Below the pieces are notes generated by a model that was not told the origin of the DNA, did no database searches, and saw only the letters and a list, made by a program, of their open reading frames with translations. From Ruminococcus sp. FMBCY1 (GTDB lineage: Bacteria > Bacillota > Clostridia > Oscillospirales > Acutalibacteraceae): a stretch of DNA of 64,000 bases. Positions 4,386 through 29,145 of this stretch are shown in pieces. The DNA lies in assembly GCF_023921805.1 (NCBI RefSeq), contig NZ_CP074197.1:1240001-1304000 (forward strand), given 5' to 3'. The translations under genes and the position numbers were made by a program. Numbering within the stretch: position 1 is the first letter of the stretch; each line of letters starts with the position of its first letter.

Positions 4386-4436
4386 TATTCTACCTCCAAT
4401 CTTATGAATTGCACTCATTGGATTTATTGTATTAAT

Positions 4437-5753: not shown

Positions 5754-5773
5754 TCTACCATCTCCTCAAAGAA

Positions 5774-5802
5774 AGCATAGCATATATTTTTTATAAATAC
5801 AA
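5774..5802 (-). promoter_or_regulatory. Probable promoter of the AEC carrier
   Basis: TTGTAT, 17 bases, TATGCT on the minus strand, about 20 bases ahead of the start codon. The hexamers are moderately good. Confidence 0.45.
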
Positions 5803-5875
5803 TATAATGTTAATTACCTTTACAAATTTGTTAGGCATTATAAACATCTTTCCCATTCCATTCACTTAAATATCA

Positions 5876-5904
5876 TTGAAAAAAGCGGTGTAATGTGTTA
5901 GAAT
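5876..5904 (+). promoter_or_regulatory. Promoter of the zinc-ribbon gene
   Basis: TTGAAA (5876-5881), 17 bases, TAGAAT (5899-5904). The start point near 5911 would leave almost no leader before the ATG at 5919. This supports initiation at the TTG at 5937, which has AAAGG ahead. Confidence 0.6.
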
Positions 5905-5936
5905 AGTTTATAATATAAATGAAAGGTTCTGAAAAC

Positions 5937-6329: not shown

Positions 6330-6366
6330 CTTTCGTTTGAAAATTTTAATGTAAAGGAGTAAAAAT

Positions 6367-7386: not shown

Positions 7387-7453
7387 AAACAACTGAATAT
7401 TTATTTTAAAAGCGTCAATAATATTTTTACAATTATAATTAAGGAGGATTATT

Positions 7454-7675
7454 ATGATTGATAAAATTGCCCTGACGCTTTTAATTATAGGCGGACTTAA
7501 CTGGGGCTGTGTAGGTATTTTTCAGTTTGACCTTGTCGCCTGGATTTGCGGCGGTCAGACAGGAATTATAAGCCGAATTGTTTACATTCTCGTTGCGCTC
7601 GCCGCAATTTGGTGTATTTCACTTTTATTCAGAGATACCGACTCCGATACTGCGGTTAATAATGATTCCGTGTAA
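7454..7675 (+). CDS. DUF378 domain membrane protein
   Basis: A 73-residue protein that is almost entirely DUF378: MIDKIALTLLIIGGLNWGCVGIFQFDLVAW, then IISRIVYILVALAAIWCISLLF. There are two transmembrane helices with the typical GGLNWG motif between them. The function of DUF378 is unknown. AAGGAGG precedes the ATG. The final dozen residues are acidic. A strong terminator follows. Confidence 0.88.
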   Translation: MIDKIALTLLIIGGLNWGCVGIFQFDLVAWICGGQTGIISRIVYILVALAAIWCISLLFRDTDSDTAVNNDSV

Positions 7676-7680
7676 CGCAA

Positions 7681-7710
7681 AAGGTGGCTGTCCACTACGA
7701 ACAGCCACCT
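7681..7710. terminator. Bidirectional terminator between DUF378 and ackA
   Basis: An 11-base perfect stem AAGGTGGCTGT / ACAGCCACCTT with a nine-base loop, followed by TATTTTTA on the plus strand. It lies between the convergent stops of the DUF378 gene and ackA. Confidence 0.85.
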
Positions 7711-7731
7711 TATTTTTATATGTAGTTTTAA

Positions 7732-8940
7732 TTAAAGGGCCTCTACAATTTCCTTTGTATCTCTTGCAATAACAAGTTCTTCGTTAGTAGCAATAAGCTC
7801 AACTCTGATTTTTGAGTTTGGAGTTGAAAGTGTGCCTGTAACGCCGCACTTTGCTTTCTTGTTAAATTCCTTGTCCATCTCTACACCAAGGCAAGAAATG
7901 TAATCGCAAACAGTTTCACGAAGCTGTGGCTGATTTTCGCCGATACCTGCGGTGAATACGATTGCGTCACAACCGCCGAGTGCAACATAATAAGAACCGA
8001 TTGTCTTTGCAATCTGATAATAAAGCATTTCGTGAGCAAGGTGTGCTCTGTGGTTGCCATGCTCCTCAGCTGCACAAACATCACGATCATCTGAGGATAT
8101 GCCGGATACACCCAAAAGACCCGATTCCTTGTTAAGAATCTTAAGCATTTCTTCGGCAGAAATGTTTTCTTTCTCTGCAATGAAAGTAATTACAGACGGA
8201 TCAAGTGAACCTGAGCGTGTGCCCATCATAAAGCCGCCGAGCGGAGTAAGACCCATTGATGTATCAATTACCTTGCCGCCCTTGATAGCTGTGATTGATG
8301 AACCGTTACCGATGTGACAAGTAATGATTTTTGTATCTTCAATATTCCTGCCCATAAGTTCAGCCATTTTCTGTGATACATAACGGTGAGAAGTACCGTG
8401 GAAACCGTAACGGCGGATACCGTACTTTTCATAGTATTTATATGGAATAGCAAACATATAAGCCTTTTCCGGCATTGTCTGATGGAAAGCGGTATCAAAT
8501 ACTACAACCTGAGGAACATCTTTGCCGAATACCTTTGTACAAGCATTGATGCCCTGAATGTGAGCGGGGTTGTGGAGAGGAGCAAGAGGAGCAAGCTCTT
8601 CAATCTTCTTGATAACATCGTCTGTTACGAGAACCGACTTATTAAAATAGCTACCGCCCTGCACTACTCTGTGACCGATTGCGCTAACCTCTGACAAATC
8701 CTTGATTGCACCATACTGCGGATCAAGAAGTGCGTCCTTAACAGCCTCAAAAGCCTGTGTATGATTAACCATCTCTGTTTTGCGTTCAATTTTTGTGCCA
8801 TCAGGAGCTTTAAAACCGATAAATGCACCCTCCTGACCGATTCTTTCACAGTTTCCTTTTGCAAGTACCTTTTCGCTGTCCATATCAATAAGCTGATATT
8901 TAAGTGATGAGCTGCCTGCGTTAATAACGAGAACCTTCAT
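7732..8940 (-). CDS. ackA: Acetate kinase
   Basis: A 402-residue cytosolic enzyme that converts acetyl-phosphate plus ADP to acetate plus ATP, the energy-yielding last step of acetate fermentation. It shows the ASKHA-fold marks of AckA: MKVLVINAGSSSLKYQL at the N-terminus, AHRVVQGG-type GHRVVQGG, VFDTAFHQTMP, HIGNGSSITAI, and FTAGIGENQ near the C-terminus. Full length. AAAGGATG lies ahead of the ATG. No pta is adjacent. With pflB in the same window it completes the formate/acetate branch. Confidence 0.97.
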   Translation of the reverse strand: MKVLVINAGSSSLKYQLIDMDSEKVLAKGNCERIGQEGAFIGFKAPDGTKIERKTEMVNHTQAFEAVKDALLDPQYGAIKDLSEVSAIGHRVVQGGSYFNKSVLVTDDVIKKIEELAPLAPLHNPAHIQGINACTKVFGKDVPQVVVFDTAFHQTMPEKAYMFAIPYKYYEKYGIRRYGFHGTSHRYVSQKMAELMGRNIEDTKIITCHIGNGSSITAIKGGKVIDTSMGLTPLGGFMMGTRSGSLDPSVITFIAEKENISAEEMLKILNKESGLLGVSGISSDDRDVCAAEEHGNHRAHLAHEMLYYQIAKTIGSYYVALGGCDAIVFTAGIGENQPQLRETVCDYISCLGVEMDKEFNKKAKCGVTGTLSTPNSKIRVELIATNEELVIARDTKEIVEAL

Positions 8941-10814: not shown

Positions 10815-10890
10815 TGGAGCGGATGACGGGGCTCGAACCCGCTACCTCCACCTTGGCAAGGTGGCGCTCTACCAGATGAGCTACATCCGC
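10815..10890 (-). tRNA. tRNA-Gly(GCC), copy 1
   Basis: A 76-base cloverleaf, 5' GCGGATG acceptor paired with CATCCGC, anticodon loop CTTGCCAAG (GCC), T-loop GGTTCGAGCC and an encoded CCA. Last gene of the four-tRNA operon. Its sequence matches copy 2. Confidence 0.97.
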
Positions 10891-10895
10891 ATTTT

Positions 10896-10971
10896 TGGTG
10901 CCTCCGGACGGAATCGAACCATCGACACGGGGATTTTCAGTCCCCTGCTCTACCGACTGAGCTACAGAGGC
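10896..10971 (-). tRNA. tRNA-Phe(GAA), copy 1
   Basis: A 76-base cloverleaf with acceptor GCCTCTG / CGGAGGC, anticodon loop ACTGAAAAT (GAA), T-loop GGTTCGATTCC and an encoded CCA. Five bases separate it from tRNA-Gly. Confidence 0.97.
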
Positions 10972-10978
10972 AAAAAAT

Positions 10979-11055
10979 TGGCGACCCGGAACGGGTTCGA
11001 ACCGTCGACCTCTAGCGTGACAGGCTAGCGTTCTAACCAACTGAACTACCGGGCC
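10979..11055 (-). tRNA. tRNA-Asp(GTC), copy 1
   Basis: A 77-base cloverleaf with acceptor GGCCCGG / CCGGGTC, anticodon loop CTGTCAC (GTC), T-loop GGTTCGAACCC and an encoded CCA. Confidence 0.96.
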
Positions 11056-11060
11056 AAATG

Positions 11061-11136
11061 TGGTGGGAACAATAGGACTCGAACCTATGACCCTCTGCTT
11101 GTAAGGCAGATGCTCTCCCAGCTGAGCTATGCTCCC
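11061..11136 (-). tRNA. tRNA-Val(TAC), copy 1
   Basis: A 76-base cloverleaf with acceptor GGGAGCA / TGTTCCC, anticodon loop CTTACAA (TAC), T-loop GGTTCGAGTCC and an encoded CCA. First tRNA of the copy. No convincing promoter was found in the 75 bases between it and the terminator of copy 2, so copy 1 may depend on read-through. Confidence 0.96.
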
Positions 11137-11212
11137 ATTTGGTAATTGTTGCCTTTGTTTCGGTCTGTAAAGACTCAAAAATACATATTAAATTATCAAG
11201 TTGTTGAGAATA

Positions 11213-11240
11213 AAAAAGCACTTGACTTACAAGTGTTTTT
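11213..11240 (-). terminator. Terminator of tRNA operon copy 2
   Basis: Stem AAAAGCACTTG / CAAGTGTTTTT with loop ACTTA, right after tRNA-Gly copy 2. On the minus strand the sequence after it is only weakly T-rich, so read-through into copy 1 is possible. Confidence 0.65.
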
Positions 11241-11242
11241 AT

Positions 11243-11318
11243 TGGAGCGGATGACGGGGCTCGAACCCGCTACCTCCACCTTGGCAAGGTGGCGCTCTAC
11301 CAGATGAGCTACATCCGC
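11243..11318 (-). tRNA. tRNA-Gly(GCC), copy 2
   Basis: Same 76-base gene as the copy at 10815-10890, including the encoded CCA. Confidence 0.97.
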
Positions 11319-11323
11319 ATTTT

Positions 11324-11399
11324 TGGTGCCTCCGGACGGAATCGAACCATCGACACGGGGATTTTCAGTCCCCTGCTCTACCGACTGAGCTACAGAGGC
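11324..11399 (-). tRNA. tRNA-Phe(GAA), copy 2
   Basis: Same 76-base gene as the copy at 10896-10971, including the encoded CCA. Confidence 0.97.
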
Positions 11400-11405
11400 A
11401 AAATT

Positions 11406-11482
11406 TGGCGACCCGGAACGGGTTCGAACCGTCGACCTCTAGCGTGACAGGCTAGCGTTCTAACCAACTGAACTACCGGGCC
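11406..11482 (-). tRNA. tRNA-Asp(GTC), copy 2
   Basis: Same 77-base gene as the copy at 10979-11055. The spacer to tRNA-Phe is one base shorter than in copy 1. Confidence 0.96.
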
Positions 11483-11485
11483 AAA

Positions 11486-11561
11486 TGGTGGGAACAATAG
11501 GACTCGAACCTATGACCCTCTGCTTGTAAGGCAGATGCTCTCCCAGCTGAGCTATGCTCCC
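11486..11561 (-). tRNA. tRNA-Val(TAC), copy 2
   Basis: Same 76-base gene as the copy at 11061-11136. First gene of the promoter-proximal tRNA operon. Confidence 0.96.
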
Positions 11562-11613
11562 ATTGCCTTTGTCGCTTCGCTTTCGTTTGTCGTATCTCTT
11601 AGCGACAGGTATT

Positions 11614-11642
11614 ATAATACACCATATCGGCTCAAATGTCAA
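11614..11642 (-). promoter_or_regulatory. Promoter of the tRNA operon
   Basis: TTGACA (complement of 11637-11642), 17 bases, TATTAT (complement of 11614-11619), with a second overlapping TATAAT three bases on. It lies 50 bases ahead of tRNA-Val copy 2. Confidence 0.8.
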
Positions 11643-11707
11643 CACTTTTTTGAATTTTTTTCAAAAAAACTTTACAAAAGCAAAGCAACACGATATTTTA
11701 CGACAAT

Positions 11708-12628
11708 TTACTCTTTTGACTTTTTGTCTTTGGAAGTGTTATCCTTGGAATTTTTCTCTTTAATAATCTTCTCAAGGTCTTCTTTATTAAAGATATACTT
11801 CTTGTTACAGAAATGACAATTAGCCACTACTCTGCCGTTTTCATCAGGCATTGCACGAATTTCATCGTCGCTCATTGTACAGAAAAGTCTTTCGAGTTTT
11901 TCTCTTGAACAAGTGCAAACATACTTTACAGGGTACTCGTCAAGCACTTCTACCTCAAAGCCTGCAAGAGCGGTTTTGCATATATCAAGAATACTCATTC
12001 CCTTTGCAAGCATAGTTGTAACAGGCTCGAGAGTTTCGAGATTCTTTTCAAGTTTTTCAATTGTATCTTCAAAAGCACCCGGCAAAAGCTGAATAAGCAA
12101 TCCGCCTGCGAGCATCACTTCGCCGTCCTCCTTATTAATAAGAACGCCAAGCGCACATACTGTGGGAATCTGCTCACTTGTTGCAAAATAATTGGTAATA
12201 TCCTCGGCAATCTCTCCGCTTACAAGCTCAACCTGACCGATATACGGGTCGCCTGAACCGTAATCACGCATTACATTAAGCACACCGTTTTTACCTACTG
12301 CTTTTGAAACATTGATTTTGCCGTTGTTATAGTATTCGGTAGGGCAATTTGCGTTTCCTACATATCCACGAACATTACCCTTACTGTCCGCAACCGCTAT
12401 TACGGGGCCGAGTTCTCCGTCACCCGATACTCTAAGGTTAATTGATGCGTCTTTCTGCTTGAGCATTGCACCCATCATAGAAGTCGCACACAAAAGTCTG
12501 CCGAGTGCCGCAGTAGCGCTTCTTGAAAGTCCGTGAATTTTCTGTGCCTTAAAAACAATATCGGACGCATCAATAGCCGATGCCATTACTGCGCCGTCCG
12601 ATGTTATACATCTTATAATTTTATCCAT
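11708..12628 (-). CDS. hslO: Hsp33 redox-regulated chaperone
   Basis: A 306-residue cytosolic holdase chaperone, activated when its zinc-binding cysteines are oxidised. The redox switch is visible near the C-terminus as CTC (VCTCSREKLERL) and CHFC, i.e. CxC followed by CxxC. The fold marks SRSATAALGRLLCATSMMGAMLK and SGDGELGP are in the N-terminal half. The protein ends in a Lys/Asp/Ser-rich low-complexity tail (SKDNTSKDKKSKE) that is an add-on to the usual ~290 residues. It starts 12 bases after the methyltransferase stop with GGGAGAATA, so it is the last gene of that operon. Confidence 0.95.
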   Translation of the reverse strand: MDKIIRCITSDGAVMASAIDASDIVFKAQKIHGLSRSATAALGRLLCATSMMGAMLKQKDASINLRVSGDGELGPVIAVADSKGNVRGYVGNANCPTEYYNNGKINVSKAVGKNGVLNVMRDYGSGDPYIGQVELVSGEIAEDITNYFATSEQIPTVCALGVLINKEDGEVMLAGGLLIQLLPGAFEDTIEKLEKNLETLEPVTTMLAKGMSILDICKTALAGFEVEVLDEYPVKYVCTCSREKLERLFCTMSDDEIRAMPDENGRVVANCHFCNKKYIFNKEDLEKIIKEKNSKDNTSKDKKSKE

Positions 12629-17494: not shown

Positions 17495-17585
17495 AACCGC
17501 ACCGCACAACCTTTTTTATTATAACTGTATTAATCTCCCCTATTATGGCAATACTTATTGTAAGAAATTGCTTGGGGGTAATTTT

Positions 17586-18371
17586 TTGCAGTATGGTAAA
17601 GTTGAAATTTGCGGAGTAAACACATCTAAGCTTAAAGTCCTAAGTGAAAAAGAAAAGAAAGCACTGCTCAACACAATAAAGAACGGCAGTGAACAAGAGC
17701 GTAAAAAAGCAAGAGACGCAATGATAAACGGCAACCTGCGCCTTGTACTTTCGGTAATTCAGCGCTTTACAAACCGTGGTGAAAATCCAGATGATTTATT
17801 TCAAGTCGGTGTAATCGGACTTATCAAAGCAATTGATAATTTCGACCCGTCACTCGATGTGCGTTTCAGCACCTACGGAGTACCTATGATTATCGGCGAG
17901 GTACGAAGATACCTGCGAGATAATAACGCTATCAGAGTATCACGCTCAATGCGTGACACCGCCTATAAGGCTATGCAAATCAAAGAACAGCTCACCAATA
18001 AAGAAAACCGAGAGCCGACAGTTGAAGAAATCGCCAAAATAATGGGAGTGCCAAAACACGATGTTGTGCTTGCGCTCGAGGCAATAATTGAACCCGTTTC
18101 ATTGTACGAGCCTGTTTTTTCGGACGGCAATGACACCATTTATGTTATGGACCAAATTGGTGACAAAAACGACGATACAACCTGGCTTGAAGAAATTGCG
18201 GTAAAAGAAGCAATCGCAAACCTTTCCGACCGTGAAAAAAGAATATTGACAATGCGGTTTTTCCGAGGCAAAACTCAAATGGAGGTTGCAAGCGAAATAG
18301 GCATTTCACAGGCACAAGTCAGCAGAATAGAAAAAGGCGCACTTGACAGAATCAAGAAAAATATTTTTTAA
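17586..18371 (+). CDS. sigG: RNA polymerase sporulation sigma factor SigG
   Basis: A 261-residue sigma-70 family factor that directs late forespore transcription after engulfment. The SigG-specific N-terminus KVEICGVNTSKLKVLSEKE is present. Then come region 2 (NLRLVLSVIQRF, DDLFQVGVIGLIKAIDNFD, VRFSTYGVPMIIGEVRRYLRD), region 3 and a region 4 helix-turn-helix (GKTQMEVASEIGISQAQVSRIEKGAL). I start at TTG 17586 with GGGGGT seven bases ahead; a TTG at 17568 would add six residues but lies upstream of that site. The usual neighbours spoIIGA/sigE are absent. This is direct evidence that the host lineage is spore-forming. Confidence 0.95.
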   Translation: MQYGKVEICGVNTSKLKVLSEKEKKALLNTIKNGSEQERKKARDAMINGNLRLVLSVIQRFTNRGENPDDLFQVGVIGLIKAIDNFDPSLDVRFSTYGVPMIIGEVRRYLRDNNAIRVSRSMRDTAYKAMQIKEQLTNKENREPTVEEIAKIMGVPKHDVVLALEAIIEPVSLYEPVFSDGNDTIYVMDQIGDKNDDTTWLEEIAVKEAIANLSDREKRILTMRFFRGKTQMEVASEIGISQAQVSRIEKGALDRIKKNIF

Positions 18372-18499: not shown

Positions 18500-19228
18500 T
18501 TACATTTTCTTTATTACTAACTTTTTTACAAAGTTAATAAACAAAACACCGAGTAATGTCAATGAAACAGCACTGATAACATAGAACGAATAAGATATAA
18601 AATTATACATAAATATATTTTCTGACATCATATTATCAAAAATTTCATAATTCTTCAAAGCAAGGCCTATCATATAATTCTCCGAAGCAAGGCCTTTCAT
18701 AATAATATAATACACAAAGAAGATAATATTTGTAATCAGAAATATTACAGCAAAAAATATTGCACTTTTTCTCGCCTTGACATTGGTTTTAATCTCCTTT
18801 AATGATATGTTTGCACAATTTTTTAGTATTACCACAAACATAACAACCGCAAACGATGAATTTATTAAATACGAAAAATCAATGTAGGTTTCACTTAAAC
18901 ATGTCACTGATGCGTTAAGCAAATAATATAAAATATCAAAACCTGTTCTTACGGCAAACAAAACACCGATATTTTTAAACACCTTTTTCGCCATAAATTG
19001 TGTATCGGTAACCAATATCACCACATAATTATATGCCAGCAGATACACAAACACAAAAGCCGCATTAAATATTAGCATTGGTATTGCAAATTTGAATCCT
19101 CCCATAGCAAGTATTCCTATGCACTTCATCCGCAAAAAGCTATGTTCCTCATTATAAAAAATCAGCGATATTAATTCGAGTGCAACCACAATTATAAAAG
19201 GTAAGCATTTTTTCAATTTACTGTTCAT
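18500..19228 (-). CDS. Multi-pass membrane protein of unknown function
   Basis: A 242-residue protein with about six transmembrane helices (roughly residues 8-26, 45-75, 85-110, 125-145, 160-185 and 215-238) and no recognised motif. It starts at MNSKLKKCLPFII, with GGGAGAATA ahead. It is the last gene of the minus-strand accessory island and has no paralogue there, though its style (hydrophobic, Asn/Tyr-rich, isoleucine-rich) matches the other island proteins. I do not recognise it. Confidence 0.6.
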   Translation of the reverse strand: MNSKLKKCLPFIIVVALELISLIFYNEEHSFLRMKCIGILAMGGFKFAIPMLIFNAAFVFVYLLAYNYVVILVTDTQFMAKKVFKNIGVLFAVRTGFDILYYLLNASVTCLSETYIDFSYLINSSFAVVMFVVILKNCANISLKEIKTNVKARKSAIFFAVIFLITNIIFFVYYIIMKGLASENYMIGLALKNYEIFDNMMSENIFMYNFISYSFYVISAVSLTLLGVLFINFVKKLVIKKM

Positions 19229-19303
19229 ATTATTCTCCCTCATTCTTATATTTTTTCGTTCAAGCCTAAAGCAAGAAAAATTTTCAATCTCTGCTTTTCT
19301 GAA

Positions 19304-19402
19304 TCACGAACGCTCGTCATAACCGGAAACTTGCCAAACATTATCTTCCAATACCCATTGTACCGTACAATTAGAACGATTAGCAATATAGCGACTGTTA
19401 TC
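19304..19402 (-). pseudogene. Remnant of the D-type (NTF2-like) island gene
   Basis: Read on the minus strand this stretch gives DNSRYIANRSNCTVQWVLED, then NVWQVSGYDERS and a stop. It aligns with the C-terminal ends of the three D-type proteins (TVQWK-LDDDNVWRVSDFD). Nothing of the N-terminal part is left; it is fused right behind the 184-residue gene, in another frame. Confidence 0.65.
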
Positions 19403-19952
19403 GGTATTTACCACCCCTGACATAAGAATCAGAGGTGGTTTTGTCAAAATAATAATTTTCTCCCAAAATACCGTTTACATCACATTCAACCCATGCAACT
19501 CTGTTGCTGTTATAATAATTAGCCAAATAACTGCCATCTCTGTGCCATGTATGTTTCATATCCCATTTTTCTGTCCAATACACAGGAAATCTCCAACTCG
19601 GTTTCATAAAATCTATATAAATTTTATCCGTACCGCAGTTTTCCATTTCATTTTTGTAATTATATGTATTTAAAAATTCATAAATTAATGCTTTGGTTTT
19701 CTCCTCATTATCGGGACAATTTTGTATTATAAATGCCCTAATCGATTCAGAATTATATTGAAGATCTTTTTCGGTACCGTACGGTGTTAATTTCCTGTCA
19801 TGAGAATAATCCTCTATTTCAAATATTCTTTCCTTATTAGGATCATTTGTTCTGTGATAAAGCTCAACACGATATGCCAAAAATCCTATAATTGCCAAAA
19901 CAGAACAAACAGATAATACGATTATTTTTGTTTTAGATTTTTTTATTTTCAT
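19398..19952 (-). CDS. Island P-type protein, copy 1 (membrane-anchored, unknown function)
   Basis: A 184-residue protein with a lysine-rich start, one transmembrane helix (about residues 8-27) and an outside domain of ~150 residues. Residues 1-47 are identical to the copy at 20582-21088, and the block WRFPVYWTE-WDMKHTWHRDGSYLANY is also shared. The divergence lies between, which suggests conversion of the ends with diversification of the centre. No family was recognised. AGGTGAATTACA precedes the ATG. The last four residues come from a fusion at the 30-bp palindrome (19410-19439). Confidence 0.65.
   Translation of the reverse strand: MKIKKSKTKIIVLSVCSVLAIIGFLAYRVELYHRTNDPNKERIFEIEDYSHDRKLTPYGTEKDLQYNSESIRAFIIQNCPDNEEKTKALIYEFLNTYNYKNEMENCGTDKIYIDFMKPSWRFPVYWTEKWDMKHTWHRDGSYLANYYNSNRVAWVECDVNGILGENYYFDKTTSDSYVRGGKYR
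19410..19439. repeat. 30-bp palindromic island site, copy 1
   Basis: Arms ACCACCCCTGA and TCAGAGGTGGT around the 8-base spacer CATAAGAA. It lies inside the C-terminal codons of the 184-residue gene and at the junction with the D-type remnant. Confidence 0.8.
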
Positions 19953-20016
19953 TGTAATTCACCTGAAAACTAAGTTTTGTAATTTTATTTTTATCCATAT
20001 CTATATTTCTTTTTAA

Positions 20017-20502
20017 TTAATATTCCATAGGATTTCGCTCATAATATTCTTCGGCGGCTTTGAATACATCAATTATTGCATTTCCTATTTCTTCCGCCGT
20101 AGCATTGGCAGGCAAGTTTATTGACTTTATGCAGCCATTATATCCGCCCTTCTTTTCTCTGCATTTCTCAGATGAATAAACTTCGTAACTTTGGTTTTGA
20201 TACAACCTAACACTTGCGAGGTTATTATGTTTCCAAAAAGTTATATATCCCTTATACTTAGAACCATTTTTCCAAAATTGTTTAGGCTTTCCTACATACA
20301 ACGGACTATCCTCAATAGATTTTAATCCTAAAAAAGCTTCAGTTCCTAACTTAGCTACAAGGTTATCTTCTGCTTCACTAACTATTGTTATTTTATCAGA
20401 ATATGTATTATAACCGGCCTTATGTTCAACTTCTTCAACAATTAAAAATCTTCCCTCTCCTTTATATATTCTTACTGTCCACGGATATGATTGTACACTC
20501 AT
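20017..20502 (-). CDS. Island A-type protein, copy 1 (CdiI/DUF1436-like immunity candidate)
   Basis: A 161-residue soluble protein without signal peptide or helix. The C-terminal stretch SINLPANATAEEIGNAIIDVF resembles the conserved end of the DUF1436 family (CdiI-type immunity proteins of contact-dependent inhibition), in which LP-x-x-xxEEIG-xA precedes a helix. This is a motif-level similarity only. It has a full-length paralogue at 25550-26035; the last ~45 residues are almost identical while the middle (residues ~25-110) differs. I start at MSVQSYPW because AGGAGGAGAAAG lies directly ahead. Confidence 0.6.
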   Translation of the reverse strand: MSVQSYPWTVRIYKGEGRFLIVEEVEHKAGYNTYSDKITIVSEAEDNLVAKLGTEAFLGLKSIEDSPLYVGKPKQFWKNGSKYKGYITFWKHNNLASVRLYQNQSYEVYSSEKCREKKGGYNGCIKSINLPANATAEEIGNAIIDVFKAAEEYYERNPMEY

Positions 20503-20546
20503 CTTTCTCCTCCTCTGTTTTTCCATTGATTATCAAATGGTACCTT

Positions 20547-20576
20547 ACCACCCCTGACATAACAGTCAGAGGCGGT
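20547..20576. repeat. 30-bp palindromic island site, copy 2
   Basis: Arms ACCACCCCTGA and TCAGAGGCGGT around CATAACAG. It lies between the frameshifted P-type gene and A-type copy 1; the ~45 bases following it on the minus strand are nearly the same as at copy 4. Confidence 0.8.
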
Positions 20577-20581
20577 TTTGT

Positions 20582-21088
20582 CTAAAAATACTTTTCAAAT
20601 CTAATTCCGTTAGCATCGCACCGCAGATACGCAACTCTGTTGCTTTCAAAATAATTTGCCAAATAACTGCCATCTCTGTGCCATGTATGTTTCATATCCC
20701 ATTCTTCTGTCCAATACACAGGAAATCTCCAACTTGGTTTCATAAAATTAACTACAAATTTATCGGTATTATACTTTTTCATTTCATTTTTATAGTCATA
20801 GGCGTCTAAAAATTCATAAATTAAATTTTTAGTATCTTCTTCATTATTCGGACAATCTTGTATCATAAAAACACGCACTGATTCAGCATTATAAGGAAGT
20901 TCTTTTTCATAATCGTATAATTTTAATTTCCTGTTATGAGCGCAATCCTCTATTTCAAATATTCTTTCCTTATTAGGATCATTTGTTCTGTGATAAAGCT
21001 CAACACGATATGCCAAAAATCCTATAATTGCCAAAACAGAACAAACAGATAATACGATTATTTTTGTTTTAGATTTTTTTATTTTCAT
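20582..21088 (-). CDS. Island P-type protein, copy 2 (C-terminus lost by frameshift)
   Basis: A 168-residue paralogue of the 184-residue protein, with an identical membrane-anchor region (residues 1-47) and a divergent middle. Where copy 1 reads TATTTTGACAAAACC, this copy has TATTTTTAGACAAAACC. The two extra bases create a TAG and cut off the family's last ~20 residues, whose coding sequence (KTASDCYVRGG) is still recognisable downstream in another frame. AGGTGAATTACA precedes the ATG as in copy 1. Confidence 0.65.
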   Translation of the reverse strand: MKIKKSKTKIIVLSVCSVLAIIGFLAYRVELYHRTNDPNKERIFEIEDCAHNRKLKLYDYEKELPYNAESVRVFMIQDCPNNEEDTKNLIYEFLDAYDYKNEMKKYNTDKFVVNFMKPSWRFPVYWTEEWDMKHTWHRDGSYLANYFESNRVAYLRCDANGIRFEKYF

Positions 21089-21121
21089 TGTAATTCACCT
21101 GAAAATTAAGTTTTCCTTTTA

Positions 21122-21763
21122 TCACAAATCCCCGTCAAAATCAGATACTCGCCAAACATTATTATCATCCGATTTCCATTGCACCGTATAAGAAAGATCC
21201 TTAGCAATATAACTGTCATTCTCATTATTCAGTTGATATCTAACATAACAGCTATAGTTTACTTCCGCAGATTTTAAAGACAATATCTGCGGTTGAATAC
21301 TCGTAAACTTTGACTCAAAAATTTCCAAATTGTTTTTGTCTGTACAATTCTCCACATACAGATAATTCATATTTTTATAAATTTGCTCCGATACTATATC
21401 CTGATATTTGCTTTTTGAGTAATCTCCGTAATTATCGCAAGACTCCTGTACTATGTCATAAGTTAGGTCGGTAAGAGTATTTTCTATATTTTTCCGATGA
21501 TTAATACAAACCCCAATTCCGACAAAAACAAGAACAAATGCTGTTATTACCGCTGCAACCTTTATTTTTCCTTTTTTATCCAGTGCTTTTAATTTTCTGA
21601 AACTGTTTAATAAATCATCAAGAGGGGTACTGTTATATGGAACTATTGTTGAAAAAGGACCAACCACTAAAACTTCCCAAAATAATTTGAAGCAAATATA
21701 AAACAGCAATAATAAGCTACACAATTGCGGTATATTAATAAACAAGAAAATATACCATATCAA
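21122..21763 (-). CDS. Island D-type protein, copy 1 (two helices plus outside NTF2-like domain)
   Basis: A 213-residue protein with two hydrophobic helices (residues ~3-32 and ~69-87) and an outside domain of ~125 residues. The domain starts DLTYDIVQES-D-YGDYSKSKYQDIV and ends SYTVQWKSDDNNVWRVSDFD. This pattern recurs in the genes at 23477 and 26131 and in the remnant at 19304. The ending is reminiscent of DUF4878/NTF2-like lipoprotein domains, but I cannot assign it. The start is TTG overlapping the zinc-ribbon stop (TTGA), so the N-terminal helix may be a private addition to this copy. Confidence 0.55.
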   Translation of the reverse strand: MIWYIFLFINIPQLCSLLLLFYICFKLFWEVLVVGPFSTIVPYNSTPLDDLLNSFRKLKALDKKGKIKVAAVITAFVLVFVGIGVCINHRKNIENTLTDLTYDIVQESCDNYGDYSKSKYQDIVSEQIYKNMNYLYVENCTDKNNLEIFESKFTSIQPQILSLKSAEVNYSCYVRYQLNNENDSYIAKDLSYTVQWKSDDNNVWRVSDFDGDL

Positions 21764-21975
21764 AAAAGCAGATCAATCAACCTATTTACCCATATTATTT
21801 TGCCTTTAAGTTTTAAAGTTGCTTTGCAATTAGGGCATTCTTTTTCTTTCCAAAAATTTGTATAAAACCCTTTTTTATACCAACTGATACATTCTTCTCC
21901 GCAAACAGGACATTTAGTTTTTTTAGATAATAAATCTATAATTTTATCTTCCAACATATCCATCTCTTTTTTCAT
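21760..21975 (-). CDS. Small zinc-ribbon protein of the island
   Basis: A 71-residue protein with a four-cysteine zinc ribbon: CPVCGEECISW, then ECPNCKATLKLKG. It begins MKKEMDMLEDKIIDLL. The MDMLEDK opening is shared with the D-type protein at 23477, so the two start regions come from one duplicated segment. Its ATG overlaps the stop of the large membrane gene (ATGA), and its own stop overlaps the next start. Role unknown. Confidence 0.6.
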   Translation of the reverse strand: MKKEMDMLEDKIIDLLSKKTKCPVCGEECISWYKKGFYTNFWKEKECPNCKATLKLKGKIIWVNRLIDLLF

Positions 21976-23369
21976 TTAATTTCAAGCATTTTTTGAGCAA
22001 AATTTATCATATAATCTGTATTGATTTCTTGATTTACTTTATTTTCATTTTCTGTAAAGTCACCGTTCGCATATCTTTCTATGTATGGATTTATAAAATC
22101 AGAATCATACTTTTTAAGATAATCACAACCGTACTCAAAGTAATTCCATTCGCCGTCAGAAATTAAAGTTTCGAGCATTGCTGTAAGCACCTTGTTTTCG
22201 CTTTGGCTCTTTATATTCTCGGTCTTAATCGCATATCTTTGGTCACCGTCAAAGAAAAACAAGCCAAAATTTTCGAGCCTTTGCACATTACACTCCAAAT
22301 AGTCCGTTGACTCCGTATATTCCGTTTCAACGGGAACAAGCTCACAATAATAATTCGAGTCCTCGTCAAACGGCATAAAGTATGTAAATGTCTTTATACG
22401 GTCTTTTCCGTTTTTTACAGTAACAGAACCTAAATTCAGCACACGCTTTTCATCGTGTTCATAAGAAGAAAATCTGCTTAACGGAGTTACACACGTATCC
22501 GTTCTGAAATCCTTTACTGTTTCATTTGTATTTGAATAGGTGGTATCTGAACTTGAAATGATACTGCTCGGAATAATCTCATACAAATCTATCGGATAAG
22601 CTATGTATTTTACAACATACAATATTCCCGTTAAAAACAAAACCGCCCATAAACGGGTTATTATTTTAGCAAAACCGACATTGCTTTTACTTTTTATAAG
22701 TCCGCATTTTTCGACTGAAAAATAAAAATACAAAAAGCAAATAATATTCAATGCGCAAATAAAAATCAGCCTTGAAACCTCAAGTATAAAGCCGATATTT
22801 TCAGTGTATGCAACCCTCACATTTGCAACGACTGTATATTTTTCAACTATATAAGCAAAACCGTTATACTGAAACATACAATATATTGCAAGCAAAGCTA
22901 CAATCACAAAAGTTGCTATAAAAAACGGTATTGTCCCTTTAATCGGGCAAAATCTAAATTTACCGTCTGAAATAAAGTCCGATATAAGCCACAATGTAAA
23001 AAACAGAAAAACTACCTCGATAATGCAAGCCGCAAAAGTAAAAACATAATCATTAAAAAAGTAATAAATAATATAGTTTGCCACATCTGCCATAAGTCTT
23101 ACACTTGCAAAACTTAATATTAATCCTACGGGACTACGCATAAAAAACGAGTAAAACTTTCCAAAACAGTAATACGAAAACATTGTATATACAGATAAAA
23201 AATAAATTGCATAATAAACTAATCTAAAAATTATATCTCCGGCATTTATATGCTCTACAATATATGTTGTACAAATAAAGCCCTTGTAATACGGAGTCCA
23301 TAGAAACATCAATATTTCCAATGCAACTAACAGTATACAGCCGCTGATTTTTGAATAATATTTTTTCAT
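21972..23369 (-). CDS. Island M-type protein, copy 1 (seven-helix membrane protein with soluble C-terminus)
   Basis: A 465-residue protein. About seven transmembrane helices occupy residues 1-285, and a soluble domain of ~180 residues follows. The last ~60 residues (from YFEYGCDYLKKYDSDFINPY to the end) are identical to those of the paralogue at 23980-25353, although the rest is only weakly similar, which points to gene conversion. It starts at MKKYYSKISGCILL with GGAGAGGAAG ahead. No known domain recognised. Confidence 0.6.
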   Translation of the reverse strand: MKKYYSKISGCILLVALEILMFLWTPYYKGFICTTYIVEHINAGDIIFRLVYYAIYFLSVYTMFSYYCFGKFYSFFMRSPVGLILSFASVRLMADVANYIIYYFFNDYVFTFAACIIEVVFLFFTLWLISDFISDGKFRFCPIKGTIPFFIATFVIVALLAIYCMFQYNGFAYIVEKYTVVANVRVAYTENIGFILEVSRLIFICALNIICFLYFYFSVEKCGLIKSKSNVGFAKIITRLWAVLFLTGILYVVKYIAYPIDLYEIIPSSIISSSDTTYSNTNETVKDFRTDTCVTPLSRFSSYEHDEKRVLNLGSVTVKNGKDRIKTFTYFMPFDEDSNYYCELVPVETEYTESTDYLECNVQRLENFGLFFFDGDQRYAIKTENIKSQSENKVLTAMLETLISDGEWNYFEYGCDYLKKYDSDFINPYIERYANGDFTENENKVNQEINTDYMINFAQKMLEIK

Positions 23370-23476
23370 TTTATCTTCCTCTCCGAAAAGCATTATTCTC
23401 AATAATAAATATTCAAGTGAAGCATATTTCCATCATTTTTTAGCATATCATTTTCTTTTCATAAACTCTCATTTTA

Positions 23477-23971
23477 TCACGGAGGATCATCAAAATCTGA
23501 TACTCGCCAGACATTATCATCATTTAATTTCCATTGCACCGTACAGGTAGATTTGCCATAGCTATAGCCCTCCTCACCTTTTACAGAAAATTTAATCTCA
23601 TAAGTATATTTCGACTCAGCTGTATCTAAGAAAAAAATTAAGGTATTTACTTTAGATTGATTTGATACATATATGATAAATTCATCTCGATTATCATAGG
23701 AACCCCCGCGAAGATAATTCATACTGCTATAAATGTTTTCCGGTACTATATCCTGATATTTGCTTTTCGAGTAATCACCGTAAGTATCATAAGATTCCTG
23801 TACTATATCATAAGTTAGGTCACTAAGATAATTTGATATTTTTATCAAGTGATTAATGTAAACTCCTGTTCCAACAGTGATAAAAACAACTGCCGTTGTT
23901 ACTGTTGTTACTATTATTTTTTTCTTTTTATTATTGGTTTTTAGTTTTTCTTTATCTTCCAGCATATCCAT
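23477..23971 (-). CDS. Island D-type protein, copy 2
   Basis: A 164-residue protein: a lysine/asparagine-rich start (MDMLEDKEKLKTNNKKKK), one helix (residues ~20-38) and the outside D domain with DLTYDIVQESYDTYGDYSKS and the ending CTVQWKLNDDNVWRVSDFDD. Closest relative of the frameshifted copy at 26131-26603. It begins nine bases after the M-type stop, mirroring the zinc-ribbon gene after the other M-type gene. Function unknown. Confidence 0.6.
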   Translation of the reverse strand: MDMLEDKEKLKTNNKKKKIIVTTVTTAVVFITVGTGVYINHLIKISNYLSDLTYDIVQESYDTYGDYSKSKYQDIVPENIYSSMNYLRGGSYDNRDEFIIYVSNQSKVNTLIFFLDTAESKYTYEIKFSVKGEEGYSYGKSTCTVQWKLNDDNVWRVSDFDDPP

Positions 23972-23979
23972 CTCTTTTT

Positions 23980-25353
23980 TTATTTAATTTCAAGCATTTT
24001 TTGAGCAAAATTTATCATATAATCTGTATTGATTTCTTGATTTACTTTATTTTCATTTTCTGTAAAGTCACCGTTTGCATATCTCTCTATGTATGGATTT
24101 ATAAAATCCGAATCATACTTTTTAAGATAATCACAACCGTACTCAAAGTAATCCCAATATCCACAAGTAATCATATACTCTAAAAAATTTGTTATAACCT
24201 CATTCTCATTTTGATTTTTAATATCATCAAAGGCTATGACATAAGGGGTATCGTTTTTTGCATAAGCTATATATTGATTTGAAAAGAATAACACTTCTTG
24301 ATCTTGTATTTTAATTGATGCGCCTGAATTTGAATTGTTTATGTTATTCTGCTCTTTATTTATGTATTCATAATCGAAAAAATTATTTAGCTTAAAATCG
24401 AGTAATTCTTCGTCATGATATTTTATTTTAACATCTGTATTTTCGTATGATAATATCTGCGATGAATTACCATTTACCCTATATATTTGTTTATAAACAA
24501 AGCTATTAGAAATTAAATTTGGTAATCCAATGTAGCAATCAGATGATCTTTCCGGTATTTTTGCAATAGTACCCACATTTGAGATACAGATTTTAATAAA
24601 CAATAATACAAATATTGCTATAAAAGCTATTATTGTTCGTGCAATAATATTTAAAAATATTTTTGACCAATATAAATCTGCGTCAAAATTATTTGCATAT
24701 AGATTATTAAGTATTATTACAAGAAGTAGTTGTAAAATGATTGCCGCAAACATTCTTAACAACTGTGAATTAAAGTTATAATTCATACTTTTAAAAAGAT
24801 AAAATGATGAATCAATTGTATATTTTTCTGCATACATTTGCAAATTTATAAATATATAGATTAAATAAGAAACAACTATAGCCACAACTAAAACATACAA
24901 TAACAATATAACTACTATAGATTTATCTTTGCCCTTAATTTTACCATATATATCTTTTAATAAATTTCTGCCGGTATAAGCAAATGTAATAATTTGGAAT
25001 ATAATTACAAAAAATACGCAATCCGTTAATAAGCTATATATAGATTTAATCTCTGTACTTTTGAAAATATAACAGCCAATATCAAGTATAACTCTTATGA
25101 ATAAAAGAGCAAAAAAAGATATTACTATTTGCTTTTTATACAGTAAAAAAGTTTTCTTAGCAAAGCCCAATATAACAAATGCACTGAATGAAAAAAAGAA
25201 TACAGTAAATAAAACAATTGACCATATTAAATTATTTAAAGGATAAACCGGTAAAATCGATTTTGAATAAGGTGTCGATAAGAATACAACTAATTCAAGC
25301 AGAGTAATTAATATCCCCATAAAGCAAATATTTTTATTTATTATTTTTCGCAT
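23980..25353 (-). CDS. Island M-type protein, copy 2
   Basis: A 457-residue paralogue of the M-type protein at 21972. It has about seven hydrophobic helices over residues 1-270, a variable soluble region, and then a C-terminus identical to the other copy. It is more AT-rich than copy 1. I start at MRKIINKN by alignment to copy 1; an ATG five codons upstream is possible, and neither has a clear ribosome binding site. Function unknown. Confidence 0.55.
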   Translation of the reverse strand: MRKIINKNICFMGILITLLELVVFLSTPYSKSILPVYPLNNLIWSIVLFTVFFFSFSAFVILGFAKKTFLLYKKQIVISFFALLFIRVILDIGCYIFKSTEIKSIYSLLTDCVFFVIIFQIITFAYTGRNLLKDIYGKIKGKDKSIVVILLLYVLVVAIVVSYLIYIFINLQMYAEKYTIDSSFYLFKSMNYNFNSQLLRMFAAIILQLLLVIILNNLYANNFDADLYWSKIFLNIIARTIIAFIAIFVLLFIKICISNVGTIAKIPERSSDCYIGLPNLISNSFVYKQIYRVNGNSSQILSYENTDVKIKYHDEELLDFKLNNFFDYEYINKEQNNINNSNSGASIKIQDQEVLFFSNQYIAYAKNDTPYVIAFDDIKNQNENEVITNFLEYMITCGYWDYFEYGCDYLKKYDSDFINPYIERYANGDFTENENKVNQEINTDYMINFAQKMLEIK

Positions 25354-25503
25354 AACTATACACACCATTTCAAATTATTATCAGTTATAAAATCATCAAA
25401 AAAAGCACGATGTTTATTAGAAACTTTGCAAGTAGTATTGAATTGTTATCTGTACCGTAATTAAAAAACTGAACACTTTACACTCTTTGTTTTTCTGTTA
25501 ATT

Positions 25504-25533
25504 ACCACCCCTGACATAACAATCAGAGGTGGT
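25504..25533. repeat. 30-bp palindromic island site, copy 3
   Basis: Arms ACCACCCCTGA and TCAGAGGTGGT around CATAACAA, 20 bases past the stop of A-type copy 2 and not inside a P-type gene. The site therefore exists independently of that coding sequence. Confidence 0.8.
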
Positions 25534-25549
25534 AGTTCTATACACCTAA

Positions 25550-26035
25550 TCAATATTCCATAGGATTTTGCTCGTAATATTCTTCGGCGGCTTTGAATAC
25601 ATCAATTATTGCATTTCCTATTTCTTCCGCCGTAGCATTGGCAGGCAAGTTTATTGACTTTATGCAGCCATTATATCCGCCCTTTTTTTCTCTAAATTTT
25701 TCAGTTGCACAAACTTTATAACTTCCGTCTTCATACAAATCTACATATGTTAAAAGATTATGTTTCCAAAAGGTTATATAGCCTTTATACTTAGAACCCT
25801 TTTTCCAAAAATCTTTAGGTAAACCCACATACAACGGACTGTTCTCAATAAATTTAAATGCTAAAAAAACTTCATCTCCCAACTTAGTTTCAAGGCTATT
25901 TACATCTTCACTAATTACAGTAACTTCATCCGCTTTTGTTCTATAGCCACCTTCATGCTTGACCCCTTTTGTTATTAAAAATCTTCCCTCTCCCTTATAT
26001 ATTGATGCTACCCATGGATAAGGTTGTACACTCAT
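25550..26035 (-). CDS. Island A-type protein, copy 2 (CdiI/DUF1436-like immunity candidate)
   Basis: A 161-residue soluble paralogue of the protein at 20017. It begins MSVQPYPW and ends with the shared SINLPANATAEEIGNAIIDVF and a helical tail. The middle third differs strongly (for example DLYEDGSYKVCATEKF against RLYQNQSYEVYSSEKC), as expected if each copy neutralises a different partner. The ribosome binding site AGGAGGAGAAAG and the preceding ~45 bases are almost identical to copy 1. Confidence 0.6.
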   Translation of the reverse strand: MSVQPYPWVASIYKGEGRFLITKGVKHEGGYRTKADEVTVISEDVNSLETKLGDEVFLAFKFIENSPLYVGLPKDFWKKGSKYKGYITFWKHNLLTYVDLYEDGSYKVCATEKFREKKGGYNGCIKSINLPANATAEEIGNAIIDVFKAAEEYYEQNPMEY

Positions 26036-26079
26036 CTTTCTCCTCCTTTGTTTTTCCATTGATTATCAAATGGTACCTT

Positions 26080-26109
26080 ACCACCCCTGACATAAGAATC
26101 AGAGGTGGT
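26080..26109. repeat. 30-bp palindromic island site, copy 4
   Basis: The same 30 bases as copy 1 (spacer CATAAGAA), embedded in a leftover of P-type C-terminal coding sequence between the D-type pseudogene and A-type copy 2. Confidence 0.8.
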
Positions 26110-26130
26110 TTTGTCAAAATAATAATTTTA

Positions 26131-26603
26131 TCACGGAGGAGAATCAAAATCTGATACTCGCCAAACATTATCATCATCTAATTTCCAATATACTGTCGGT
26201 GAAGTTTCCCCACCGGAGCTATGATCTTCGTTTTTTCTTATATAATAACATTTTTCCTTATAGAACGATTTGGCTGTATTTCCGGGTAAAACTAATGTTA
26301 TGGGATTTGTATGATAACATTCAGTTATATGATAATTACTGCCATCGCCCTCCCCAGGTCCCGGCAAAATATTCATAATGCTATAAATGTTTTCCGGTAC
26401 TATATCCTGATATTTGCTTTTCGAGTAATCACCGTAAGTATCATAAGATTCCTGTACTATATCATAAGTTAGGTTACTAAGATAATTTGAGATTTTTATC
26501 TGATTATATATATATACTCCGATTATAATAATTGCAATTATACCTACAATTGTACCTATAATTTTTATATTTTTTTATTTTTTTTATTTTTTTTATTTAT
26601 CAT
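26131..26603 (-). pseudogene. Island D-type gene, copy 3, frameshifted in a poly-A tract
   Basis: From ATG 26601-26603, behind AGGAG (eight-base spacing), the frame reads MINKKNKKNKKI and stops. Adding one A to the seven-A run (T run 26570-26576 on the plus strand) restores an open frame of ~157 residues: NIKIIGTIVGIIAIIIIGV (helix), SNLTYDIVQESYDTYGDYSK and, at the end, VYWKLDDDNVWRVSDFDSPP. So this is a complete D-type gene broken by one base in a 9-base repeat tract. It may be a real pseudogene, a phase-variable gene or a sequencing error. It heads the island. Confidence 0.65.
26570..26598. repeat. Poly-T tract with 9-base unit
   Basis: Plus strand: seven T, A, eight T, A, eight T, A, TTT. 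On the coding strand the unit is AATAAAAAA (Asn-Lys-Lys). The homopolymers are long enough for slipped-strand mispairing. Confidence 0.8.
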
Positions 26604-27168: not shown

Positions 27169-29145
27169 ATGAAGTATGTCTTTAATGATGAGCGTTCTCC
27201 GCTGCGACTGTTTTCTGACGGTGACGCTGTTCGTGCTTACGACTTTCTCGGCGCTCATTTTATAAATTTAGACGGCAGAAACGGTGTAATTTTCAGAGTA
27301 TGGGCGCCAAACGCAATTACAGTTTCTCTTGTCGGTGATTTTAACAATTGGAATCAAAAAGCTAATTATATGTATAAAATCGGCGGCGGTGTATGGGAAC
27401 TGTTTATTGAAAATCTCAATGAATTTGCCGTATATAAATTCTGTATAGAAACCGTTGACCACACAAACATTTTAAAATCGGATCCGTTTGCTTTTCATTG
27501 TCAGACAAGACCCGAAAATGCCTCTATGGTATTTAATACAAATCAATATGTATGGCATGACAGCTATTGGATGGAAAATCGTCAGAATACATCTTCACCC
27601 GACAAGCCGATGAATATATATGAAATTCACGCAGGCTCGTGGAAAAAATATCCTGACGGCAATTACTTTAACTATCAAAAAATGGCAGATGAGCTTATTC
27701 CTTATTTAAAGGAAATGAACTACACTCATGTTCAGCTTATGCCGCTTATGGAATATCCGTATGACCCAAGCTGGGGCTATCAGACAACAGGATACTTTGC
27801 CGCAACCTCCCGTTACGGTACGCCGTGTGACCTTATGGCTCTCATTGACCGCTGTCATATGGAGGGAATCGGCGTTATTATGGAAATTGTACCGTCAAAC
27901 TTTCCTAAGGACGATTACGGACTTTATAAATTTGACGGCACCTGCCTTTACGAGGACAACAATCCTAAAAAAGGTCAGCGTGACAGTTGGGGCACTTGCC
28001 TCTTTAATTTCCAGCGCTATGAGGTAATCAGCTTTTTGATTTCGGCTGTAATGTTCTGGTTCGACAAATACCACATTGACGGTATGCGAATCGGTGCGGT
28101 TTCTTCTATGCTTTACCTTGACTACGGCAAAAAGGACGGCGAATGGGTACCTAACCGCTTTGGCGGCAACGAAAACCTTGAGGCAATCGACTTTATCAAG
28201 CGTTTGAACAAGGCAGTACATATGTATCACCCGTCGGCTCTTACATTTGCCGAGGAAAACACTTCGTGGCCAAAACTTACCCTGCCTATTGAGGAGGGCG
28301 GACTCGGATTTGACTACAAATGGAATATGGGTTGGATGAACGATACTCTCCACTATATGTCGCTTGACCCGTTGTGGCGACCGTTTAACCACGATAACCT
28401 TACATTCAGCTTTTTCTATGCTTTTTCAGAGAGATTCATTCTTCCTATTTCTCACGATGAAGTCGCTCACGGCAAAGGCTCGCTTATCAGCAAAATGCCG
28501 GGTGACTATGACAGCAAGTTTGCAGGCGTAAGAACATTTATTACATATATGTACGCTCATCCCGGTAAAAAGCTTTTATTTATGGGCTGCGAAATAGGAC
28601 AGTTTGATGAATGGGATTCCGACTCGGGTATTCAGTGGGATCTTCTTAAGTTTGAAAAACATAATGCTCTATATACATTCTTTAAAGCAATAAATAAATT
28701 TTATATTGAACATAAGCCGCTTTATGAGCTTGACAATACTCCGAAAGGCTTTGAATGGATACACCGTAACGACTACACTCAAAGCGTTATTGCTTTCAGA
28801 AGAACCGACTCAGACGGCAACGAAATCATTGCAGTCTGCAATTTTCAGCCGACCGTTCACGAAAACTATATGATAGGTGTTCCCCGCTTTGGCGAATATG
28901 AGGAAATATTTAATTCCGACTTAACCGAATTTGGCGGAACAGGTGTATCAAATACAGGCACTCTTACCACGGTGCCGATGAAAATTCACGGTTACAAGCA
29001 GGGACTTTCACTTACCCTGCCGCCGCTCGGTGTAATTTATCTTAAATGTACAAAGGAACTTGAAAATCCCGAAGGCAACACCGAAAAGCCGAGAAAAACC
29101 GTTGTTCTCAATTCCGAAACCGTAAAGGCAGAGGAATTAAAATAA
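27169..29145 (+). CDS. GlgB-family 1,4-alpha-glucan branching enzyme homologue with degenerate active site
   Basis: A 658-residue GH13 protein heading the glycogen operon. Domain order matches GlgB: an N-terminal CBM48 (GVIFRVWAPNAITVSLVGDFNNW), a (beta/alpha)8 barrel and a C-terminal beta domain. The catalytic sequences are altered. Region I is EIVPSNF (residues 239-245) instead of D-x-V-P-x-H-F. Region II is DGMRIGAVSSM, with Gly309 where the nucleophile Asp belongs. Region III AEEN and region IV SHDEVAHGK (Asp430) are intact. From family knowledge a GH13 enzyme without the nucleophile should not branch glucan, so this may be a scaffold or regulatory subunit. AAGGAG precedes the ATG; glgC follows 71 bases after the stop. 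Confidence 0.9.
   Translation: MKYVFNDERSPLRLFSDGDAVRAYDFLGAHFINLDGRNGVIFRVWAPNAITVSLVGDFNNWNQKANYMYKIGGGVWELFIENLNEFAVYKFCIETVDHTNILKSDPFAFHCQTRPENASMVFNTNQYVWHDSYWMENRQNTSSPDKPMNIYEIHAGSWKKYPDGNYFNYQKMADELIPYLKEMNYTHVQLMPLMEYPYDPSWGYQTTGYFAATSRYGTPCDLMALIDRCHMEGIGVIMEIVPSNFPKDDYGLYKFDGTCLYEDNNPKKGQRDSWGTCLFNFQRYEVISFLISAVMFWFDKYHIDGMRIGAVSSMLYLDYGKKDGEWVPNRFGGNENLEAIDFIKRLNKAVHMYHPSALTFAEENTSWPKLTLPIEEGGLGFDYKWNMGWMNDTLHYMSLDPLWRPFNHDNLTFSFFYAFSERFILPISHDEVAHGKGSLISKMPGDYDSKFAGVRTFITYMYAHPGKKLLFMGCEIGQFDEWDSDSGIQWDLLKFEKHNALYTFFKAINKFYIEHKPLYELDNTPKGFEWIHRNDYTQSVIAFRRTDSDGNEIIAVCNFQPTVHENYMIGVPRFGEYEEIFNSDLTEFGGTGVSNTGTLTTVPMKIHGYKQGLSLTLPPLGVIYLKCTKELENPEGNTEKPRKTVVLNSETVKAEELK

Follow-up and report, generated by a model that had tools for sequence, protein, structure and literature searches.

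In heterogeneous polyimmunity loci, immunity genes of unrelated families stand in tandem on the same strand, and nearly all immunity proteins are called cytoplasmic, with few exceptions (Zhang et al., 2012, PMC3482391). The tandem type VII secretion system (T7SS) immunity genes esaG and tipC are recombining paralogues with conserved blocks and variable parts, and TipC is membrane-bound and faces the extracellular space (Garrett et al., 2022, PMC9484751). The rAID arrays of gut Bacteroidales are orphan immunity arrays that contain SUKH-domain immunity genes and are associated with recombinases (PMC12247911), and an orphan CdiI related to EC869 CdiI was reported in S. Typhi (PMC9086364). Here we describe a gene array in a 64,000-nucleotide stretch (the window; positions 1240001-1304000) of the single-contig genome of Ruminococcus sp. 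FMBCY1 (2375995 bases), which is likely to be an orphan, heterogeneous polyimmunity island.

The array consists of four recurring gene types, A, P, D and M, and a further membrane protein gene, M0. As in the heterogeneous polyimmunity loci, its genes belong to unrelated families, share one orientation and are separated by short intergenic gaps with no recognised toxin gene in between. It differs from them in that P, D, M and M0 carry hydrophobic spans and belong to unassigned families, and in that no recombinase was recognised beside it. Like the T7SS immunity genes, it contains recombining tandem paralogues with conserved blocks and variable parts, and D and P are predicted to face outward, as TipC does; unlike them, it resides in a genome with no LXG match. 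The likeness to the rAID arrays lies in an orphan set of immunity genes in a gut anaerobe, whereas neither SUKH nor a recombinase was seen in the array, no dedicated recombinase search having been made.

The array sits between a sporulation sigma factor gene (17568-18371) and glgB (27169-29145). These two labels, as well as rny, gapA, glgC, the proline-synthesis genes and the aldo/keto reductase, were assigned by eye, with no family match behind them. The G+C content of the array is 27-33%, compared with 35-43% in most other 2-kb steps of the window, of which 4001-8000 is likewise low. The minus-strand orientation of all the named genes and their coordinates, as given in the initial annotation, were confirmed. 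The features are as follows, in the order of transcription.

26131..26602, minus strand: D3, a broken D copy with three in-frame TAA codons, the intact C-terminal part being of centre class 2
26081..26108, no strand: 28-nt palindrome between D3 and A2
25550..26035, minus strand: A2, predicted CdiI-fold protein of 161 aa (the listed open reading frame (ORF) extends to 26059; start placed from the ORF list and the homologue starts at MSVQ)
25505..25532, no strand: 28-nt palindrome 3' of A2
23980..25368, minus strand: M2, homologue of M1, with the last 35 codons almost identical
23477..23971, minus strand: D2, single hydrophobic span and soluble domain, centre class 0
21972..23402, minus strand: M1, membrane protein in which several hydrophobic spans are followed by a soluble part at the C-terminus
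21760..21975, minus strand: 71-aa ORF with two CxxC pairs, overlapping the M1 end; zinc-ribbon matches, all those shown being below cut-off
21122..21763, minus strand: D1, hydrophobic N-terminus and soluble domain, centre class 1
20582..21088, minus strand: P2, single hydrophobic N-terminal span, 77% identity with P1
20548..20575, no strand: 28-nt palindrome with 1 mismatch, between P2 and A1
20017..20502, minus strand: A1, predicted CdiI-fold protein of 161 aa (the listed ORF extends to 20526)
19411..19438, no strand: 28-nt palindrome within the P1 3' end
19398..19952, minus strand: P1, single hydrophobic N-terminal span, palindrome within the 3' end
19303..19400, minus strand: D remnant, the C-terminal end alone, behind P1
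18500..19243, minus strand: M0, membrane protein with several hydrophobic spans, without significant similarity to M1 or M2

The CdiI fold of the A proteins and the toxin neighbours of their relatives

The A1 and A2 proteins share 73% identity. Their translation probably starts at the second ATG (20502 and 26035, respectively), as judged from the homologues, which are 161 aa long and begin at MSVQ. The initial annotation had guessed that A is CdiI-like, and this guess is supported by both a structure comparison and a toxin gene beside one relative. The predicted model of A shares the fold of the CdiI structures 4g6u, 4zqw, 4zqv, 4zqu, and 2gkp, which we take to be members of PF07262, over 136-142 residues.

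In a scan of one genome per species (84,980 species), the query A5 detected five loci related to A, whereas no A relative was found with the query A1. At the L035 locus (Ruminococcus sp. UBA946), 131 bases separate the start of the A-type gene (5428) from the stop (5296) of a preceding 845-aa frame, the C-terminus of which matches CDI_toxin_EC869_like (PF21111; 27.8 bits, cut-off 27), a toxin family of contact-dependent inhibition (CDI). This frame also shows a TSP3 match just under the cut-off (24.7 vs 25), and the two overlapping frames upstream of it match TSP3 (26.5 bits) and CBM2 (80.2 bits), the three frames possibly being separate genes. The toxin frame had no match among PDB sequences at E<=1.

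A weaker second case was observed within the genus, where 2 of 161 genomes match PF21111 (G012 and G334). In G012 (L039:9997-11102), a C-terminal PF21111 piece (31.2 bits) lies directly 5' of a 304-aa A-like gene, which matches the A profile with an hhalign probability of 70 (E 4.2e-5). An LXG-like frame lies nearby (23.8 bits against a cut-off of 26.5). The match in G334 (18.5 bits) is below the cut-off, lies within an apparent aldo/keto reductase, and was taken as chance; a small gene at L040:10897-11418 of the same genome shows a sub-threshold match to Imm68 (19.6 bits, cut-off 29.6).

For L036 (Lachnospiraceae NK3A20), the A-type gene stands at the contig end, with 28 matched residues, and is preceded by a CBM2 frame, a VWA-AHH-nuclease frame, and an Imm11 gene. 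The toxin frames of L035 (905-5296) and L036 (5726-8838) adjoin frames with cellulose-binding CBM2 modules and TSP3 repeats (partly sub-cut-off) and, in L036, VWA; they are possibly fibre-bound polymorphic toxins. In L006, an A-type domain with a C-terminal extension (10835-11800) lies downstream of DO-GTPase2 and GAP1-N2/GAP1-M proteins (22-8927), an arrangement that could represent a conflict system.

The A proteins are thus like CdiI (PF07262) in fold and in the position of the L035 relative behind a PF21111 toxin, and differ from it in their 9-16% identity to the solved members of the fold, their sub-cut-off family score, their duplication, their orphan state and their Clostridia host. Among the members of the A family, 5 of 10 match PF07262 at E<=0.1 (best E 0.046), and the L034 relative reaches 21.1 bits. 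The PDB sequence search with the A profile gave a weak best match (E 0.024).

Duplication and recombination of the array genes

The duplication of the gene types was borne out by direct repeats of 66-86% identity: three register copies of 237 nt for D (77% and 66% to the reference), two copies of 300 nt each for A (86%) and P (78%), and two copies of 274 nt at the M/D junction (86%). The D remnant is represented by a 46-nt repeat at 19303-19348. In contrast, three other stretches of about 13 kb yielded 0, 3, and 3 direct-repeat families with the same settings, which were duplicated tRNA genes and pairs of 40 nt or less.

Identical ends and differing centres had been ascribed to all types. For D, this was observed in the population alignment, in which conserved stretches flank the variable centre on both sides and the N-terminus is exchangeable, whereas P, A, and M are mostly conserved at one end only. 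The DNA identity between P1 and P2 is 100% in codons 1-30 and 94% in codons 121-150, with 74-76% in codons 61-120 and 63% in codons 151-168. For A1 and A2, it is 96-97% in codons 121-169, with 84%, 66%, and 72% in codons 1-30, 31-60, and 91-120, respectively. For M1 and M2, it is 98-100% in the last 35 codons and 86% in codons 412-441, with 31-50% in codons 1-411. Synonymous change is low within the conserved ends and high in the other windows of codons, indicating, at the level of sequence, that parts of the genes were exchanged or homogenised by recombination and that the centres do not reflect fresh divergence in place. In addition, sequence matching the P1 end lies between D3 and A2, indicating that the gene types recombine with each other. 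The dN/dS values between A1 and A2 are 0.13-0.80, below 1 in every window, so that positive selection is not demonstrated, and fresh positive selection on A was rejected.

Several copies had been called freshly broken. This applies to D3 and the D remnant, whereas nine frames of at least 164 aa are intact and P1 is still open, although its 3' end passes through a palindrome. The two broken copies, together with the finding of neither a PF21111 nor an LXG toxin, would fit a graveyard of immunity modules that drifts by recombination after the loss of a toxin locus and has no present function. We consider such a graveyard improbable, because of the nine intact frames, because the dN/dS values of A, P, and D, where computable, are 0.12-0.99 and always below 1, and because the A1-like cluster P0001 comprises 296 member sequences on 1000 contigs.

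The 28-nt palindrome, which the initial annotation did not report, is present in four copies, before A1, before A2, after A2, and in the P1 end. Its exact pattern occurs at three places in the genome, all in the array. It lacks a T run and is absent from the two terminator-like sites predicted, and an ordinary terminator was therefore rejected. A cassette system that mobilises A genes by site-specific recombination at the palindrome would account for the presence of the palindrome on either side of A2, its position before A1 and in the P1 end, and the confinement of exact matches to the array. Such a system is very unlikely, since no recombinase was recognised among the array proteins, although no search was aimed at recombinases, A1 has no palindrome 3' of the gene, and the corresponding position in L035 is occupied by a strong hairpin that differs from the palindrome, as would be expected of a terminator or attenuator. 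This 15-bp hairpin (L035:5340-5372) lies between the toxin frame and the A-type gene, and it leads us to guess that the palindrome of the window may be left over from a spacer between a toxin and an immunity gene. Hairpins are not a general feature upstream of A, as shown by eight upstream stretches tested against 100 single-base shuffles each: no shuffle came up to the hairpins of A2, L035, and L034 (A+T-rich), whereas the hairpin was reached by 11 of 100 shuffles for A1, 13 for L039, 35 for L036, and 93 for L032, and L006 gave none.

Mosaic structures were also observed in the population, for which strain variation was read from protein clusters. For D, the best 120 of 161 relatives were taken, of which 111 passed a length filter of 145-170 aa, and the three window copies were added. 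They fall into five centre classes (114 rows) and four N-terminal classes (113 rows), which occur in 10 combinations. The three D copies of the window represent three different centre classes (0, 1, and 2), and this genome lacks the commonest one, class 3 (87 of 114). Class 3 is carried by the clusters P0145 and P0152, with longest contigs of 2.42 and 2.37 Mb, presumably other near-complete genomes. The relatives with 61-76% identity to A1 or D2 carry the label Ruminococcus sp.

For A, 38 intact sequences of 67 relatives were analysed with A1 and A2. In the four-gamete test, 334 of 595 informative site pairs failed, and the association falls with distance, with no equally strong decay in 2000 permutations. 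In the D set (113 rows), 88 of 210 pairs failed, and the distance decay was matched by 1 of 2000 permutations. Both tests were performed on amino acids, to which recurrent mutation can contribute. Strands 1-5 and helix 1 hold most of the variability of A, with means of 0.7-1.2 bits, compared with 0.2 bits in strand 6 and the C-terminal helix (29 rows). These results indicate, as far as protein sequences can, that A and D in the population are recombinants that alternate conserved stretches with a few exchangeable ones. This mosaicism fits diversifying immunity.

The membrane families P, D and M

P and D2 have one N-terminal hydrophobic span, D1 has more, and M1, M2, and M0 have several. M1 and M2 are homologous (34% over 333 aligned positions, E 6e-39), and with their near-identical ends they uphold the proposed M type, to which M0, the membrane protein at 18500, shows no significant similarity. 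The PDB sequence searches were weak for both M1 (best E 0.0049, a membrane segment of SCAP) and the D profile (best E 0.21), and neither TipC nor EsaG turned up when D was compared with Pfam and PDB sequences.

With the poor structure model of D, the best Foldseek match had an E of 0.010, so that none reached the limit of 0.001. NTF2-like names occur several times among the 50 matches listed, which is not used here as proof. Immunity proteins of the NTF2 fold are listed by Zhang et al. (PMC3482391), and D would suit them if the fold were confirmed. Weak D relatives were found in G022 (E 3.7e-6 over 69 and 1.3e-4 over 49 positions) as two tandem lipoprotein-like frames, which adjoin proline-synthesis genes and beside which no toxin was recognised.

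From their place in the shared array, the recombination design known from esaG and tipC (PMC9484751), and the TipC-like topology, we consider it reasonably probable that D and P are immunity proteins; for M, the same role would be less probable than for D and P. Conversely, A might be the only immunity protein, with P, D, and M forming an unrelated recombining membrane or surface system, such as an envelope sensor or a phage-receptor decoy, at the same plastic site. The missing family matches of P, D, and M, as well as the lipoprotein-like G022 relatives of D and their surroundings, speak for this alternative. It is nevertheless unlikely, given the TipC-type immunity gene design of D and the match between the D3-A2 stretch and the P1 end, through which the types recombine together.

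Orphan state, genomic site and proposed role of the array

The genome of Ruminococcus sp. FMBCY1 has no match to PF21111 at E<=0.01 and none to LXG (PF04740) at E<=0.1; in a control search, the LXG cut-off was passed in 1 of 14 named genomes. Comparison of the array proteins with families gave no toxin match. The array had been called orphan, and this holds for PF21111 and LXG, the two families sought. The array DNA had no megablast match (which needs about 85% identity) in phages or plasmids, and no tblastn match was obtained for A2, M1, and D2 in plasmids or for D2 in phages. No relative of A or D was found on viral contigs.

The array genes have a patchy distribution among related genomes. 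A was found in 1 of 60 genus genomes (that of FMBCY1) and 2 of 250 family genomes (FMBCY1 and G271), and in FMBCY1 only among 394 order and 391 class genomes, the samples overlapping. P was found in 1 (FMBCY1) and D in 2 of 161 genus genomes. glgB was present in all 20 genus genomes searched, and in all eight relatives compared, its surroundings contained no match to A, P, D, or M at E<=1e-3. Without the array, glgB adjoins gapA and rny in G308, G032, and G002, and rny in G016; the neighbours of glgB differ in the remaining four. The array of FMBCY1 stands between glgB and the rny side, indicating that the site was rearranged.

Elsewhere in the window, four tRNA genes (Gly, Phe, Asp, and Val) at 10815-11561 are tandemly duplicated, with copies about 428 bases apart and 99% identical. 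Two 5S rRNA genes lie 367 bases apart at 59087-59570, and the 11 Rfam hits obtained for the window include neither 16S nor 23S. The positions 46014-46083, 51872-51907, and 56134-56173 are linked by two short repeat pairs (36 nt, 86%; 40 nt, 93%).

The reading of the array as a polyimmunity locus is supported for A, by its fold and the toxin neighbour of the L035 relative, and appears plausible for P, D, and M. The following observations weigh against it. A1 and A2 score 14.0 and 13.1 bits against PF07262 (DUF1436), below the 25-bit gathering cut-off, and the L035 relative is 36-37% identical to A. The 304-aa gene of G012 was linked to A by profile comparison, tblastn giving no match at E<=0.05. 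A C-terminal extension is common to L035, L006/L033, L034, and L039 and is absent from the A proteins of the window. No toxin was recognised beside the A relatives of L006/L033, L032, and L034, though most neighbours there were unscanned, and the toxin search in FMBCY1 covered PF21111 and LXG only. P, D, M, and M0 gave nothing above the cut-offs of Pfam, NCBIfam, and PADLOC, and the D model has a pLDDT of 51.4. The dN/dS values of A do not demonstrate positive selection, and the strain variation comes from protein clusters, not from aligned loci.

The suggestion that this may be an undescribed system was too strong, since heterogeneous polyimmunity loci (PMC3482391) and recombining immunity paralogues of Firmicutes (PMC9484751) have already been described. 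A literature search within one library, covering titles and abstract openings, found no description of this array system. Novelty lies in the families and the host group, the kind of system being known.

As a polyimmunity island, the array would act at two places. In the cytoplasm, A would bind an EC869-type nuclease that enters the cell and block it, as CdiI of the same fold does. With lesser support, toxins that strike at the membrane or beyond it might be countered by D and P, as membrane-anchored proteins, and by the multi-pass M, in M-D pairs. The conserved stretches would serve as crossover tracts, by which copies could be gained, lost, and re-sorted against the changing toxins of neighbours. 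Because no fitting toxin was found in its own genome, the array is probably a shield against the weapons of neighbouring cells.

Speculatively, and with considerable doubt as to the whole of it, we suggest that gut Clostridia might wield CDI-type nucleases and other toxins on secreted CBM2/TSP3/VWA proteins (modules that the adjoining frames of L035 and L036 encode) on plant fibre, and that these might be answered by orphan islands in which a cytoplasmic CdiI-fold antidote, a new two-part M+D envelope module, and P are joined and sorted by recombination. The findings would place an EC869-type CDI toxin/immunity pair in Clostridia, offer the toxin domain of UBA946 as a directly testable partner for the A proteins, and mark P, D, and M, three unassigned membrane families, as candidates for immunity proteins. 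After the work on orphan immunity in gut Bacteroidales (PMC12247911), a case in Ruminococcus would add a Gram-positive group.

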